Assembly (NCBI GenBank): GCA_019637435.1
Contig: JAHBVO010000003.1
Span: 620,001 to 684,000, forward strand
Reading direction: 5' to 3'
DNA: 64,000 nucleotides
Source of the DNA: Candidatus Obscuribacterales bacterium
GTDB taxonomy: Bacteria; Cyanobacteriota; Vampirovibrionia; Obscuribacterales; Obscuribacteraceae
Positions 12,544-18,546 of the stretch are shown piece by piece. A program made the translations under genes and the position numbers. Each line of letters starts with the position of its first letter. Position 1 is the stretch's first letter. The notes below the pieces were generated by a model. The model was not told the DNA's origin, did no database searches, and saw nothing but the letters and a program-made list of their open reading frames with translations.

Positions 12544-13116
12544 GTGAATTCCAGGCTTTTCGCGGCGTTGCTTCTATTGGTTTTAACCGGGACAAATGAT
12601 TGTTTCGCGAAAGAAACCGATAGCAGCTCCGGAGCAATTTCGAGCGATGCTTCCTCCACAGGCACTGTCAGCCAAGCTGTCGGTAGGAAATTGCGGAAAG
12701 TGTCCTTCCCGAAGGATAGCTTCTCAGTTCTGATGCCGGGCGACTTTACCACCGTGGAGAAAGCCGGTGTTCGGACCTACACGTGTGCGGACTATCCTCA
12801 TGGGCTGATCACTGCGATTTGCGCGACTTCCTCTGAGAATTCGCCCTTTACTCCTGTAGTTTTAAAAGAGCTTGTGGAGAAGCTAACTCCTAATAAGAAA
12901 CAAATCGACAAAGAATCTACCGTCAAAGTGAACGGCATCGAGGGCACGCAGTGGGACATAACAAATAATGGTGATGCCCCGCAGGACGGCTGTCAGGTGC
13001 GGGGCTTTATCGTGGGGCGCCGGTTGTACATTTTGATGGTTTACGGGACAAAACCATGGATCGAATCTGATGCTATTAAGCAGTTCATGAATTCCCTGGA
13101 AGTCGCGAGCGAATAG
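12544..13116 (+). CDS. Secreted single-module protein related to C-termini of the next two genes
   Basis: 190 aa from a GTG start with a signal peptide (MNSRLFAALLLLVLTGTNDCFA). The mature part is one domain: FPKDSFSVLMPGDFTTVEKAG, a Cys-containing strand region (TYTCADYPHGLITAICATS), a long helix (LKELVEKLTPNKKQ), VNGIEGTQWDITN, then GFIVGRRLYILMVYGTKPWIESDAIKQFMNSLEV. The same pattern (F-x-V-x-x-P ... GYPGR/NGIEG ... V-G-R-x-L-Y-x-L ... KxFxxSL) recurs at the C-terminus of the TraB proteins at 13129 and 14789, so this gene looks like a free-standing copy of that module. Function unknown; periplasmic or exported. Confidence 0.75.
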   Translation: MNSRLFAALLLLVLTGTNDCFAKETDSSSGAISSDASSTGTVSQAVGRKLRKVSFPKDSFSVLMPGDFTTVEKAGVRTYTCADYPHGLITAICATSSENSPFTPVVLKELVEKLTPNKKQIDKESTVKVNGIEGTQWDITNNGDAPQDGCQVRGFIVGRRLYILMVYGTKPWIESDAIKQFMNSLEVASE

Positions 13117-13128
13117 GAAAAGTCGGAG

Positions 13129-14757
13129 TTGGCTGTAATAAGTTTTAGTAAATTTGGTCTGATACTGTCAGCGGTGCTGCTTTCGCTGCAGCTGATTGTG
13201 CTGCCTGCACTTGCCGCGGACGACCCGATTGGAACTGGGGATGAACCTGCGGCTTCCGCAGGCGAGACTGATGGTAAGGGCTCGTCCACAAATAACACGA
13301 CATCATCCGAAGCCGGCGATGAAACTGCACCTGCTGCTAAACCAACATTTCTTTGGAAAGCAACCAAGGGTGGTGACACGATTTATCTTCTTGGTACCAT
13401 TCACGGTGCTATGTCCCAGTTTTACCCCTTGCCGAGCGCAATCGATCAGGCTCTCGACGAGTCCAAGCATCTCATGGTAGAGATAGCGATCGATAAAGTC
13501 GATCCGTCCAGGGTCTCGAAAACCGTTCACGAGCTCGGTCAATACACACCTCCGGACCATTTGTCGAAACATCTCACGCCGGAAACGAAGAAGATCTTCG
13601 AGCAGTTTCTCGACTGGTCGGGCGGCACCTGGGAAATGTATGAAAAATACAAGCCCTTTTATGCGGCGAGCATGGCATCGCAGTCGAAAAGATGGGTAAC
13701 GGAGTCGACAAAGTTTCGTTCTTCCCTGGGTCTGGACCTTTACTTCCTTGCTCGTGCGCGCGAGGCCGGTAAGGCGATTTCTGATCTGGAGACTGTCGAG
13801 CAGCAGCTGCATATCGATGCAGATTTGTCGGAAGCCGCCCAGGATAGACTTCTTCGGACGTCGATATTGCACATGAGTGAAGTCGAATCACAGCTCAAAG
13901 GCTATCTTGATGCCTGGAAAGCAGGTGATACCGAGAAGATGGAGGCACTGGCCAAGGCGCGGACAAAAGATTATCCAGAACTACGCGAATACGAAAAGGC
14001 GTTGCTCGACGATCGCAACATTGGAATGATGAACAAGATCAAGCTACTGGCGAAGACTAAGCCTGGTCCGCATTTTGTAGCTGTCGGGGCGGCGCATCTC
14101 GTGGGACCGGCCGGATTGGTGTCGCTGTTTGAAAATGACGGATACAAAGTTGAACGTGTCACCTCTGACGCGATGAATAGCACGAATAGTGCGGTTCCGA
14201 AGCTCGATAACAAAATCTATCAGGAGCGTTTCAAGATTTGGTTCCCGGTCGAGCCGCGTCGTTTGTCCGAGAAAGATACCGTTCGATACGAAGCTTATGA
14301 GCCGCCCAACGGTGCATATCTGGTTTGTGTTTTCACTTCTCCGACCGAGCCCCGCGATTGGCCGGTGCCACCACCGCTGATGCTTGATAAACTGGTGACG
14401 ATTTTTAAACCAGATCCGGGTACGCGCAAGTCTTTTGCACTCCAGGGTTATCCCGGGCGGGAAATCGAGTGCTCTGGTCCGGCGTTGACGCAGAAGCCGG
14501 GCGGGACTGCGAAGACCAGCTCCGAGCGTGGTTCTCAGGCAGGAGCTGCCAGTGAGAAAAAGAGTGGTATGCCGGGCCAGGGATTTGGTTTAGGAGCTGC
14601 ATTTTCAAAGGTCCAGGCGAAAGATGTAAAGGCAAAGATTCGGGTTTATCTTGCCGGAAGAAGGTTCTATTTGTTATGCGCTGTTGGCGGTAAGCCGTTC
14701 CTCGCCTCTGATAATGTCTCGAAGTTTTTCGATTCACTGGAGCTTCTATCCAATTGA
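13129..14757 (+). CDS. TraB/GumN (Tiki-type) family protein with C-terminal extra module
   Basis: 542 aa from TTG 13129, 12 bp after the previous stop. A signal peptide (ILSAVLLSLQLIVLPALAA) and polar linker lead to a TraB/GumN domain at about residues 72-345: FLWKATKGGDTIYLLGTIHG opens it. The two GX2H motifs of the Tiki/TraB metalloprotease-like family are both intact (G89-T-I-H92 and G320-A-A-H323). After residue 360 comes the module also found alone at 12544 (FKIWFPVEPRRL, GYPGREIE, YLAGRRFYLLCAVGGKPFLASDNVSKFF). Likely periplasmic. Known family members are putative metal-dependent hydrolases; substrate unknown. Confidence 0.85.
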   Translation: MAVISFSKFGLILSAVLLSLQLIVLPALAADDPIGTGDEPAASAGETDGKGSSTNNTTSSEAGDETAPAAKPTFLWKATKGGDTIYLLGTIHGAMSQFYPLPSAIDQALDESKHLMVEIAIDKVDPSRVSKTVHELGQYTPPDHLSKHLTPETKKIFEQFLDWSGGTWEMYEKYKPFYAASMASQSKRWVTESTKFRSSLGLDLYFLARAREAGKAISDLETVEQQLHIDADLSEAAQDRLLRTSILHMSEVESQLKGYLDAWKAGDTEKMEALAKARTKDYPELREYEKALLDDRNIGMMNKIKLLAKTKPGPHFVAVGAAHLVGPAGLVSLFENDGYKVERVTSDAMNSTNSAVPKLDNKIYQERFKIWFPVEPRRLSEKDTVRYEAYEPPNGAYLVCVFTSPTEPRDWPVPPPLMLDKLVTIFKPDPGTRKSFALQGYPGREIECSGPALTQKPGGTAKTSSERGSQAGAASEKKSGMPGQGFGLGAAFSKVQAKDVKAKIRVYLAGRRFYLLCAVGGKPFLASDNVSKFFDSLELLSN

Positions 14758-14788
14758 TAAAATACTTGAACACTACTGGAAGAGATTG

Positions 14789-16972
14789 ATGCTTTTGCGC
14801 AGGGCTGTATCGGTAATTTGTCTGTCGCTCATGATTGTGAGCGCATCCGGTTGTCCATGTCTAAATTCTCAGTCCGCCGTGCAAGCCGCAACCGAGTTCT
14901 CTTCGGAAGCAGCGCTATTGGACGATGTTCACACCAGGCTTTCAGCTCTTATTCGCGAGTGCTATCCAAAAACCAAGGTAGTTAAAACTGGAAATAAACT
15001 TCGTATCGAGTATAAAGTTCGACCATTCATAACGGTCGGCAATAAGACTGAGATGGCGCCTGACTTTGGAGGTCTGGCGTGTGATATCGAGTTGCGACCT
15101 GGGAAATATTCCGGAAGAACTCGTCTGCCGCAACAGTACAACGAATACAATTTCTATTCTGTCATTTTGATGGCTCCGTACTCAAAGGCGCTCAATGCTC
15201 ACCTGTACACCAAACTGCTCTATCCATCTGATACGCCGCAGGAGTTTCAAGATCGATTCAAGGACTTGATGAATGAGTACGATGATGTCGCGATGGAGGT
15301 TTCCAAACCGCCTCTTTCCGCTCCCGTGAGCGCCAGTGTAACAACGCCTGCGCCGGATCAACCAGCACCGGCTATCGAGGAGCCTGCGTCGAACCAGGTC
15401 CCCAAAACGAAACAGATCTTTTGGAAAGCGCAACGCGGAGATGATGTTGCATACATTGTCGGTACGATTCCGTTCCGCCAGACAAGCGGCAAAGCGCTTA
15501 CGATGGCGCCCGAAATCAAGGAGGCGTATAAGAACGCGAAGTCAGTAATAGTAGATACGATAAACTTGCCGACAAGCTTGCCCTATTCCGATAAGAGTAT
15601 TCGATATGAAAGTGGAGACAAGCTGTCCAAGCACCTCTCGCCGGAATCGACCAGAGCTATGAAACAATATCTCGAATGGTCCGGTGAAACCATGGAGATG
15701 TATGAGTTTTGGAAGCCCTGGCTGGCAGCAGTAGCATTCGAGAATTCGGCGTTTCGACTCAACGGCTTCGAGCGTGTAGATTGGCAGCGGTTTATAGCTG
15801 AAAGAGCCAAAAAAGATTCGAAGCTCGTTCATGAAATGGAGTCGGCGGACGAGAAAGTCAAATTATTCGAAAGTCTACCTGCTGAAAAGCAAGATAAGCT
15901 ACTCACGCTATCCATCAAAGAATTGATGAAATTTGATACGGCACAGCAGGAGATTGAGTCTGCCTGGCGTGCAGGTGATGTTGAGAAGTTAGAGCAAGCG
16001 GAAAATCGTGAGCTCGTTGGAGACGCGCCACTAAAGGCAGTATTCGATGAATTGAAAACTGCTCGTGTCAGTCGGCTCACCGAAAAAATTCAGACCTCTC
16101 TGAAAGATGGTTCTCCTATTTTCGTGGCTGCGGATGCGCGAAAGCTGCTTGGTGACGGCGGTTTGATAAGTCGTTTGGCGGAGAGCGGCTTTTCTGTAAC
16201 TCAGGGAAGTAGTGACATCGTCATGACACCTCCCGGTATATCGCCTTCAGTGTCATCGCAGAAAGAACTGCCCATGCCGTCTTTCGGCGGTGCGCGCTTA
16301 TCGCGTTATACGTATCCGGAAGGCAAGTTCAGCGTGTTGCTTCCGGGAAAACCCGACACCCGTTACACGACGAAAACTGGAATGCGGCAAGTGGAGTACA
16401 TCTACCAGGATAATCAAGGCGCATACTGTGTCGGTTACATAATATTGCCTGGCGTTCCCCAAGCGGCTGCGATTCCATCGGCGCTCGATGCAACTGCAAA
16501 CGGTTTAAAAGCGTCGTATAGGACGATAGAGTCAAAAGAAGGTCCGGTAAGCCTTCAGGGTTATCCGGGTCGATTCATAAACATCACCAAGATTAAGGAT
16601 AAGAGTGACTGGGGCGTCAACATTCGCATGTACGTTGTGGGAAAGATGTTGTACATTCTGGCTGCAGAAGGCACTCCGGCCTGGTTGCGTTCGCCGGCGG
16701 TTCAACAAGTTAGCAGCTCATTGACAGTTGTAACTCCCGAGGAAGAAGCGCGGGCGAAGCTGAGAAGCAGTCCGGCACCCTCGTGGCCTGCGACTGCGAA
16801 GCCGCCTGTTGCGAATTCGTCAACTCCGACAGTGACTCCTCCAGTATTTGATCCGAATGCTAAGAACCGAGGCGAGGTGGTTTCCCCTCGCAAGAAGAAC
16901 TGGGGAGCAGACCCCTACGGACCTGTGTCTCCGTATCAACGAAGTCGCCATACATGGGGAGGTAATAATTGA
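14789..16972 (+). CDS. Lipoprotein with inactive-looking TraB domain and C-terminal module
   Basis: 727 aa from ATG 14789 (GGAAGAGATTG before it; the longer frame from 14651 overlaps the previous gene). MLLRRAVSVICLSLMIVSASGC is a lipoprotein signal. A unique domain (about residues 30-175) precedes a TraB-like domain (about 207-480) that aligns with the neighbour, including IFWKAQRGDDVAYIVGTI and LSKHLSPES...YLEWSGETMEMYE. Both GX2H motifs are lost: GTIH becomes G225-T-I-P228, and VGAAHLVG becomes ADARKLLG (Gly to Asp, His to Lys). The shared module follows (YPEGKFSVLLPGKP, GYPGRFINI, YVVGKMLYILAAEGTPAW), then a Pro-rich tail. Probably a paralog turned non-enzymatic partner. Confidence 0.8.
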   Translation: MLLRRAVSVICLSLMIVSASGCPCLNSQSAVQAATEFSSEAALLDDVHTRLSALIRECYPKTKVVKTGNKLRIEYKVRPFITVGNKTEMAPDFGGLACDIELRPGKYSGRTRLPQQYNEYNFYSVILMAPYSKALNAHLYTKLLYPSDTPQEFQDRFKDLMNEYDDVAMEVSKPPLSAPVSASVTTPAPDQPAPAIEEPASNQVPKTKQIFWKAQRGDDVAYIVGTIPFRQTSGKALTMAPEIKEAYKNAKSVIVDTINLPTSLPYSDKSIRYESGDKLSKHLSPESTRAMKQYLEWSGETMEMYEFWKPWLAAVAFENSAFRLNGFERVDWQRFIAERAKKDSKLVHEMESADEKVKLFESLPAEKQDKLLTLSIKELMKFDTAQQEIESAWRAGDVEKLEQAENRELVGDAPLKAVFDELKTARVSRLTEKIQTSLKDGSPIFVAADARKLLGDGGLISRLAESGFSVTQGSSDIVMTPPGISPSVSSQKELPMPSFGGARLSRYTYPEGKFSVLLPGKPDTRYTTKTGMRQVEYIYQDNQGAYCVGYIILPGVPQAAAIPSALDATANGLKASYRTIESKEGPVSLQGYPGRFINITKIKDKSDWGVNIRMYVVGKMLYILAAEGTPAWLRSPAVQQVSSSLTVVTPEEEARAKLRSSPAPSWPATAKPPVANSSTPTVTPPVFDPNAKNRGEVVSPRKKNWGADPYGPVSPYQRSRHTWGGNN

Positions 16973-18546
16973 GTTCTATGCGTAACCCTCGTTTTACTCG
17001 CTTCGGATTGAAGAACCGACTTCTGATTGCGTCACTGTTTTTCTTTACACAAAGCGGATTCTCTGCGGCTCTTGCGGATGAACTGGCCTGGCAAACTTAT
17101 AACGACGCCGGAGAATCTTTTGTAAAACAGCAAAAGTTCTCGGAAGCAGAGGAGATACTCGCATTGGCTGTCAGTGCGGCGCGCGATATGAATTCGAACG
17201 AGAAATTGCGCATCAGTTTAACTCTCCTAGTGCAGGTTTTTGAAAAATTGAATCAGGCTGAGAAGGCTGAAGCTGTGCGCAAGGAATTGCAAGCTCTTGG
17301 TGGTCCCGTGCCGGTTGCGGTTTCCCCGTCAGAGAGCACCGGTGCACCTGTTGCAGTTTACCCCCCAGCCTCAGAGAGTTCTACCGAACCCGTTTCGAAA
17401 ACTCCCGAGTCGGTGTCTGATGCCTCAGTGCCTGCGTCCGCGACTGAAACGTCTACAAAGTCGAAATCACCTGACAGCAGCATGCAGGAGGTAAAAACTG
17501 AAGACGGGGATGTCGATAAGTTGATTCAACAACTGTCGAGTGAACGTGAGGGCTTGCGACAGTCAGATGGCGCCGGTGTCTCGAGTTTAACGTCAGCCTC
17601 TCGACCTGACCAGATTGCTTCGACACTACCCCCGGTGGCAGCATCGGGAACTACAATTACTGCAACAGAAGTGAAACAGTTGACGGGACCTTTTGATTTT
17701 GCAATTTCAATCTGTTTTGCTCCGAATTCCAATTATGCAGCGTCGAGCGGCGGCGACCAGATCGCGCGTTACTGGGACATTTCTTCAGGTAAGGAAATTT
17801 CGCAATGCGCCGGTCACAAGGGAAACGTAAATTCGGTTTCGTTCTCCAAGGATGGTCTGAGAATAGTTACCGGAGGCGATGACCAGACTGTTCGCATATT
17901 CGCTGCCGGTAGCGGTCAGCAAGAGAAGCTGATGGAGGGGCACAAGAATACTGTTCTATGCGCTACTTTCTCGCAGGACATGAGGCGCGTTGCCTCTGGT
18001 TCTTTTGATGGAGCGATTATTATTTGGGATGCGGAAACCGGCTCCAGGGTTGGAACACTGGAAGGGCACACCCGACCGGTGAGAAGCGTTATGTTCTCGC
18101 CATCCGGTGATAAGCTGGTCTCCGCGAGCGACGACCATACATTGATTATTTGGGATGCGAACTCGCTTAAGCCTTTAAATACGCTGAAGGGGCACACTGA
18201 CTATGTCCTCAGTCTCGATATCTCGCCGGATGGTAGTCGCATAATCAGCGGTGGCCGCGACCTCAAGGTTCGCGTGTGGGATATGAATAACGGCAGCGAA
18301 CTGCAGGTCATGGAAGGTCATAAAAATTGGGTTCAGCGAGTGCGCTTTATGAATAGTGGTAACCAGGCCATGACCGGAAGCCTGGACAAAACGGTGCGAA
18401 TCTGGGATGTTTCATCCGGTGCATTGCAAACCACCGTTGAAGGTTTTGAGTGGGGACTGTGGGCAGAGGACTTTGCTCCTGATTCCAGGCAAGTCTTGAC
18501 GGGAAGCAATGATAAGACCATTAGAGTTTGGTCGCTGCCAAACTAG
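16969..18546 (+). CDS. Exported TPR-WD40 repeat protein
   Basis: 525 aa. The TTG at 16969 overlaps the previous stop and sits 5 bases after GGGGAGGT; ATG 16978 is the alternative. A signal peptide/anchor (IASLFFFTQSGFSAALA) is followed by TPR-like helices (about residues 40-110), a Ser/Pro/Thr-rich linker (about 115-225) and seven WD40 repeats (about 235-525) with typical GH...WD spacing (GHKGNVNSVSFSKDG, GHTRPVRSVMFSPSG, DDHTLIIWD, GHTDYVLSLDISPDG). This forms one seven-bladed propeller, a protein-binding scaffold, here probably outside the cytoplasm. Same-strand continuation of the TraB cluster. Confidence 0.9.
   Translation: MSSMRNPRFTRFGLKNRLLIASLFFFTQSGFSAALADELAWQTYNDAGESFVKQQKFSEAEEILALAVSAARDMNSNEKLRISLTLLVQVFEKLNQAEKAEAVRKELQALGGPVPVAVSPSESTGAPVAVYPPASESSTEPVSKTPESVSDASVPASATETSTKSKSPDSSMQEVKTEDGDVDKLIQQLSSEREGLRQSDGAGVSSLTSASRPDQIASTLPPVAASGTTITATEVKQLTGPFDFAISICFAPNSNYAASSGGDQIARYWDISSGKEISQCAGHKGNVNSVSFSKDGLRIVTGGDDQTVRIFAAGSGQQEKLMEGHKNTVLCATFSQDMRRVASGSFDGAIIIWDAETGSRVGTLEGHTRPVRSVMFSPSGDKLVSASDDHTLIIWDANSLKPLNTLKGHTDYVLSLDISPDGSRIISGGRDLKVRVWDMNNGSELQVMEGHKNWVQRVRFMNSGNQAMTGSLDKTVRIWDVSSGALQTTVEGFEWGLWAEDFAPDSRQVLTGSNDKTIRVWSLPN

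Follow-up and report, generated by a model that had tools for sequence, protein, structure and literature searches.

The window, a stretch of 64,000 nucleotides (G000:C3:620001-684000), comes from a host genome of 7.66 Mb in 6 contigs. Four close-packed genes on its + strand lie in the order C, E, P and a gene for a WD40-repeat protein. Their coordinates, with those of the domains and motifs of E and P, are given in the table.

Genes, domains and motifs of the C-E-P locus (window coordinates)
Feature	Position	Strand	Description or basis
Gene C	12544..13116	+	190 aa, exported-looking; one C-type domain (PsbP/Mog1-like, via homology to the P C domain)
Gene E	13129..14757	+	Intact TraB-domain protein, T + C architecture
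E first GX2H motif GTIH, residues 89-92 (H92)	13393..13404	+	Sequence, alignment
E second GX2H motif GAAH, residues 320-323 (H323)	14086..14097	+	Sequence, alignment
Gene P	14789..16972	+	Very probable TraB-fold pseudoenzyme, N + T + C architecture
P N domain, ~125 aa	14924..15307	+	HMM 9.8e-57
P TraB domain, residues 211-472	15419..16204	+	PF01963
P GTIP replacing first GX2H, residues 225-228	15461..15472	+	Sequence, alignment
P DARK replacing second GX2H, residues 449-452	16133..16144	+	Sequence, alignment
P C domain, PsbP/Mog1/DcrB-like fold	16295..16729	+	HMM 9.6e-56; model vs 2xb3
WD40-repeat protein, immediately 3' of P	16969..18546	+	Pfam, synteny

A sequence-only reading of this DNA had described an intact TraB/Tiki enzyme next to a relative without its motifs, and both genes were confirmed, E with its two GX2H motifs and P with GTIP and DARK in the corresponding alignment columns. 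The Pfam TraB domain (PF01963) covers residues 74-343 of E (E-value 1.2e-59) and was found in P with an E-value of 3.3e-36. The P match scored 125.9 bits against a curated cut-off of 26.8 and ran from position 2 to 263 of the 263-position profile, which makes P a member of the TraB/PrgY/GumN family. E and P aligned with each other by BLASTP at E 2e-35, with 26% identity over 515 columns. E has the sequence features of TraB/Tiki-type proteins, that is, both GX2H motifs together with the family's conserved Glu and Arg (GTIH, VE, RN, GAAH); by this motif set E is a normal-looking TraB/Tiki-type enzyme, for which metal-dependent peptidase activity is predicted. P lacks the two GX2H motifs and so is not classed as an active TraB/Tiki enzyme. 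The earlier label of P as a lipoprotein was only partly upheld: a lipobox-like ASGC is present in the window's P, but that Cys is absent from the ortholog in genome G013, whose N-terminus on inspection resembles an ordinary signal peptide, so the label is weak. In E, residue Y205 (13741-13743) is a Tyr in the GIDxH stretch, as it is in the G013 ortholog; most intact relatives have His there.

Three recurrent modules were recognized in these proteins: N (~125 residues), T (the TraB domain) and C (~150 residues). Writing T* for a TraB domain with the motifs lost, the module order of the three genes is C, TC, NT*C in the window and C, NTC, NT*C in G013, where the E ortholog has an extra N domain. 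The protein of gene 12544 matched the C domain of P by BLASTP (E 5e-15) and by the C-domain HMM (E 4.7e-47). Outside the TraB domain, Pfam gave nothing in 12544, E or P at E-values up to 1, and an NCBIfam scan of the three returned 0 families. The C domain has no named Pfam family by sequence and is PsbP/Mog1-like by structural match only. The N domain lacked a Pfam match in P and in the other N-bearing proteins scanned, and it appears to be an undescribed module recurring in many proteins of the family. An N domain was also seen fused to a Sel1-repeat protein, and the domain is doubled in some proteins (window 14924-15307; L094 3586-5463; L093 5301-6059). Three genomes in which PF01963 has no match, G032-G034, have N + C proteins (L099, L100 and L101), and there these two modules would function independently of TraB. 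The N-domain tree was poorly resolved; the domain trees omit rows of 80 residues or fewer, namely 2 of 40 N rows and 1 of 30 C rows.

Of 50 host-family genomes, 22 gave a PF01963 match at an E-value threshold of 0.001 and 21 did so above the curated cut-off. Class-wide, 21 of 382 genomes gave matches above the cut-off, all within the host family. A search of named genomes using only E as the query gave no confirmed match. We aligned 27 of the 29 PF01963 rows, dropping L054 (below the cut-off) and L058 (57 profile positions). Both GX2H motifs are kept in 22 of the 27 aligned copies and neither is kept in five, here called dead copies: P and its G013 ortholog, which define locus A, and the copies at a second locus, B, in G000, G014 and G013. 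Locus B was thus found in all three genomes of the genus; its motif replacements are ATIN/DVRR in G000, PVIN/DLRR in G014 and GILE/DICC in G013. An intact TraB gene is present, too, in all three genomes that have a dead copy. Orthologs of P with intact GX2H motifs, which would have pointed to a recent loss or a sequence error, were not what we found: the G013 ortholog, 52% identical to P, also lacks both motifs, and in the TraB tree the intact homologues that have P's N-terminal domain join E and not P.

Conservation at the former active site was scored over a reference set of 39 columns, each conserved in at least 20 of the 22 intact homologues. The dead copies retain 104 of 195 cells (53%) of these columns and 0 of 15 cells at H92, G320 and H323. 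Seven of the 39 columns show zero retention and all three motif columns are among them, for which the probability is 35/9139 = 0.004; against the 53% retained overall, the loss at these three positions therefore exceeds chance. Residues F317, D331 and D449 are invariant in all five dead copies and particular to the dead clade, D331 standing where 21 of 22 intact copies have Gly and D449 where 22 of 22 do. The family-conserved E118 is replaced by Asp in 4 of 5 dead copies (D256 in P; Glu in one copy), and the position of R426 reads R, R, R, C and K across the five. At the former catalytic site, the conserved Asp residues may now form an altered binding site.

In a tree of the 27 aligned rows the five dead copies group as a single clade with support of 100/99. 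The same clade was recovered at 100/98 in a 38-row tree that included an outgroup and left out the motif columns, and it nests among copies with intact motifs, so the motif loss is derived. With the caveat that branches in the dead clade are long and fast, the trees show the loss as having occurred once, in an active-type ancestor, with the dead lineage later duplicated to two loci; separate losses at loci A and B are disfavoured by the single clade (100/99 and 100/98), under the same caveat. E itself groups with intact NT proteins of genera g21 and g23 (98/97; 99/95 in the 38-row tree). A clade of E plus P of the genus was rejected by the AU test with p 0.00064 and again with p 0.00084 when the motif columns were removed and the outgroup added, the long branches of the dead clade being a caveat for the trees and the AU results alike. 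These two tests rule out P as a recent tandem copy of E. The origin suggested by the sequence-only reading, that E was duplicated locally and one copy then converted, is thus not supported, and the dead lineage is found also at a second locus without E.

Between the P orthologs pS was 0.76 (saturated) and pN was 0.35; the corresponding values for the E orthologs were 0.79 and 0.32. Saturated synonymous change with limited non-synonymous change, near the values of E, argues that P is maintained. Sequencing artefact as the source of P is ruled out by the motif-less copies in other genomes together with the pS and pN values. P is accordingly a motif-less TraB-domain protein conserved in that state under purifying selection, on which point the sequence-only reading was borne out. 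Since a conserved catalytic motif is gone from a lineage still under selection, P is very probably a conserved pseudoenzyme, a status that derives from motif loss in a sequence compatible with a moved active site.

To see what accompanies the dead copies we compared their neighbourhoods. A C-only gene lies upstream of all five, directly at locus B (3/3) and with E intervening at locus A (2/2). E is beside a dead copy at 2 of the 5 places and a PsbP-like protein at 5 of 5; the constant companion of P is a small exported-looking PsbP/Mog1-like protein, not E. The C-only proteins of loci A and B form a clade (98/94) whose branching mirrors that of the dead TraB tree, as expected if C and T* were duplicated together. 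The locus B dead copies have no C domain and no adjacent E, so a role as partner of E is not general. Upstream at locus B is a GHL10-type hydrolase, matched in G000 by PF02638 at 1.4e-37; its counterparts in the remaining two genomes are 79-80% identical. The locus B spans are L064 7364-11822, L063 6498-11315 and L061 6929-11802, and rpsL- and rpsG-like genes, recognized by eye, lie within a few kb. In genera g21 and g23, an intact NT protein adjoins an NC protein without a TraB domain (six full pairs and a further one truncated where its contig stops), and in G004, G009 and G035 a C-only gene comes after an intact TC gene. For six T-only proteins, one of them truncated at a contig end, neither an N nor a C module was seen in the short stretches examined around them.

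Genome G014 is syntenic with the window: orthologs of 10102, the aldo/keto reductase, the WD40 protein, receiver-like 18509 and 19129 occur in the same order with 52-78% identity. The gap between reductase and WD40 genes in G014 is ~88 bases, with no N, T or C match; elsewhere that genome has an intact TC protein and the locus B dead copy. The empty site indicates that the C-E-P cassette is present in two of three species and absent from one as a unit, a pattern of co-presence and co-absence drawn from three genomes only and possibly reflecting one event. Membership of the WD40 protein in the module is disfavoured because G014 keeps WD40 without C-E-P, and this protein is probably a conserved neighbour outside the module.

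Structure prediction, proposed as a check with the original reading, gave two models of middling quality (mean pLDDT 76 and 74; pTM 0.59 and 0.57). The TraB domains of P and E both matched the same solved TraB-family chain, from Tetrahymena complex IV, with Z 10.2 over 210 aligned residues for the P T-domain model and Z 12.7 over 207 for the E model; at the level of these models, the TraB fold is shown to be kept in P. The P C-domain model matched 2xb3 (CyanoP) with Z 13.7, 139 aligned and an rmsd of 2.9, and Foldseek matched the domain to 9gnw_P at E 1.5e-5; a structural match that spans the domain assigns it a PsbP/Mog1-like fold. The best structural match of the N domain was weak (2zfd_B, Z 5.5). 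The VIA structure listings hold mostly C-domain matches, so a family missing from them may still be a structural relative. A sequence search for solved relatives gave no credible match at the limits used.

Several known systems bear on these proteins. According to a passage in PMC7117660, PrgY is believed to break down the pheromone that donor cells make themselves; E and P have the domain of this TraB/PrgY/GumN family (PF01963) above the curated threshold, but P is without both GX2H histidines and has extra N and PsbP-like C domains. Excerpts of PMC6254334 report that the four residues of a 2His/2Glu set were essential in one TIKI-superfamily endopeptidase, and that another member of the superfamily, lacking the catalytic motif, had no endopeptidase activity on KRas. 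H92, E118 and H323 of E probably correspond to part of the TIKI catalytic set; E keeps these residues, whereas P has P228, D256 and K452 there, a loss for which the motif-less member described in those excerpts is a precedent. A figure legend in PMC10060162 names "a TraB-family protein" among the accessory subunits of Tetrahymena complex IV, and from the structural match this protein would be the matched chain DQ (8B6H/8BQS; 7W5Z chain E). There the fold common to P and E serves as an assembly subunit, although that subunit is mitochondrial and has no known link to an active paralog. The C domain of P is similar in fold to PsbP/CyanoP, Mog1 and DcrB-like domains, but it has no Pfam match and is fused to or paired with TraB domains, not with a photosystem.

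The reading we favour, with a probability of roughly one half, is that P is exported, has a TraB fold that binds without hydrolysing, and forms a complex with the PsbP-like protein, joined at locus A by E. P in the envelope would bind a peptide or protein ligand of the type that TraB enzymes process and, as predicted from the motif loss, would not hydrolyse it. The N domain and the PsbP-like C domain of P would hold the complex together, joining C and, here, E. Where E exists, P would present, protect or meter substrate for it, and at locus B the dead TraB would act with the PsbP-like protein alone. Going further, and tentatively, the TraB/Tiki active site may have become a conserved acidic pocket, the dead protein being an envelope receptor or sensor paired with the PsbP-like protein, to which an active TraB was added at one locus; by its fold, the PsbP-like protein would be a cousin of the protein that assembles photosystems in the sister cyanobacteria.

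The sequence-only reading took P for a non-catalytic regulator or chaperone of the active enzyme; in the form of a prozyme-like heterodimer, P would be a subunit on which E depends for activation or folding. E and P are adjacent in both cassette genomes and jointly missing from the third, the presence of an intact TraB in 3 of 3 dead-copy genomes agrees with such a role, and catalytically dead paralogs that activate an enzyme are known (PMC5201418, PMC3663545). However, three of the five dead copies, those at locus B, have no adjoining E, so that the proposal fits locus A only; E and P are not sister paralogs; and E-type enzymes of other genera adjoin N + C proteins that carry no dead TraB domain. 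An obligate activator is on these grounds rather unlikely.

P might instead retain another catalysis, for example as a different metal-dependent hydrolase, with a site moved to or rebuilt on D256, D331 and D449. The invariance of D331 and D449 in all five dead copies, in place of glycines (21/22 and 22/22 intact copies), is consistent with this, and pseudoenzymes may have migrated catalytic residues (PMC10211241). We consider it improbable because neither lost position is His and no other metal-ligand set is conserved alongside, while D256 is Glu in one copy and R426 varies (R, R, R, C, K). That P is a functionless decaying gene or a sequence error is very hard to credit: the dead clade does have longer branches than most intact copies, but the frames are open in 5 of 5 copies, orthologs exist in independent genomes, and saturated synonymous against limited non-synonymous change (pN 0.35), with the invariant new residues, largely refutes decay. 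A natural intact and dead pair sharing partner domains offers a way into bacterial TraB-family function: the dead copy could be put to use directly for trapping substrates, and its PsbP-like companion is a pointer to the assembly within which TraB-family proteins operate.

In the open-licence literature searched on the TraB, GumN and PrgY families we found no report of a TraB pseudoenzyme, and PMC9513094 contained nothing pertinent on enzymes. In the phylum outgroup both motifs were kept in 10 of 11 copies. The exception, without either motif, is L083 (G412:C7, 1444-2295, + strand), a 283-aa exported-looking TraB-domain protein from another family of the phylum with GITP and NINN, which may, to judge from its sequence, be a second, independent case of a TraB pseudoenzyme.
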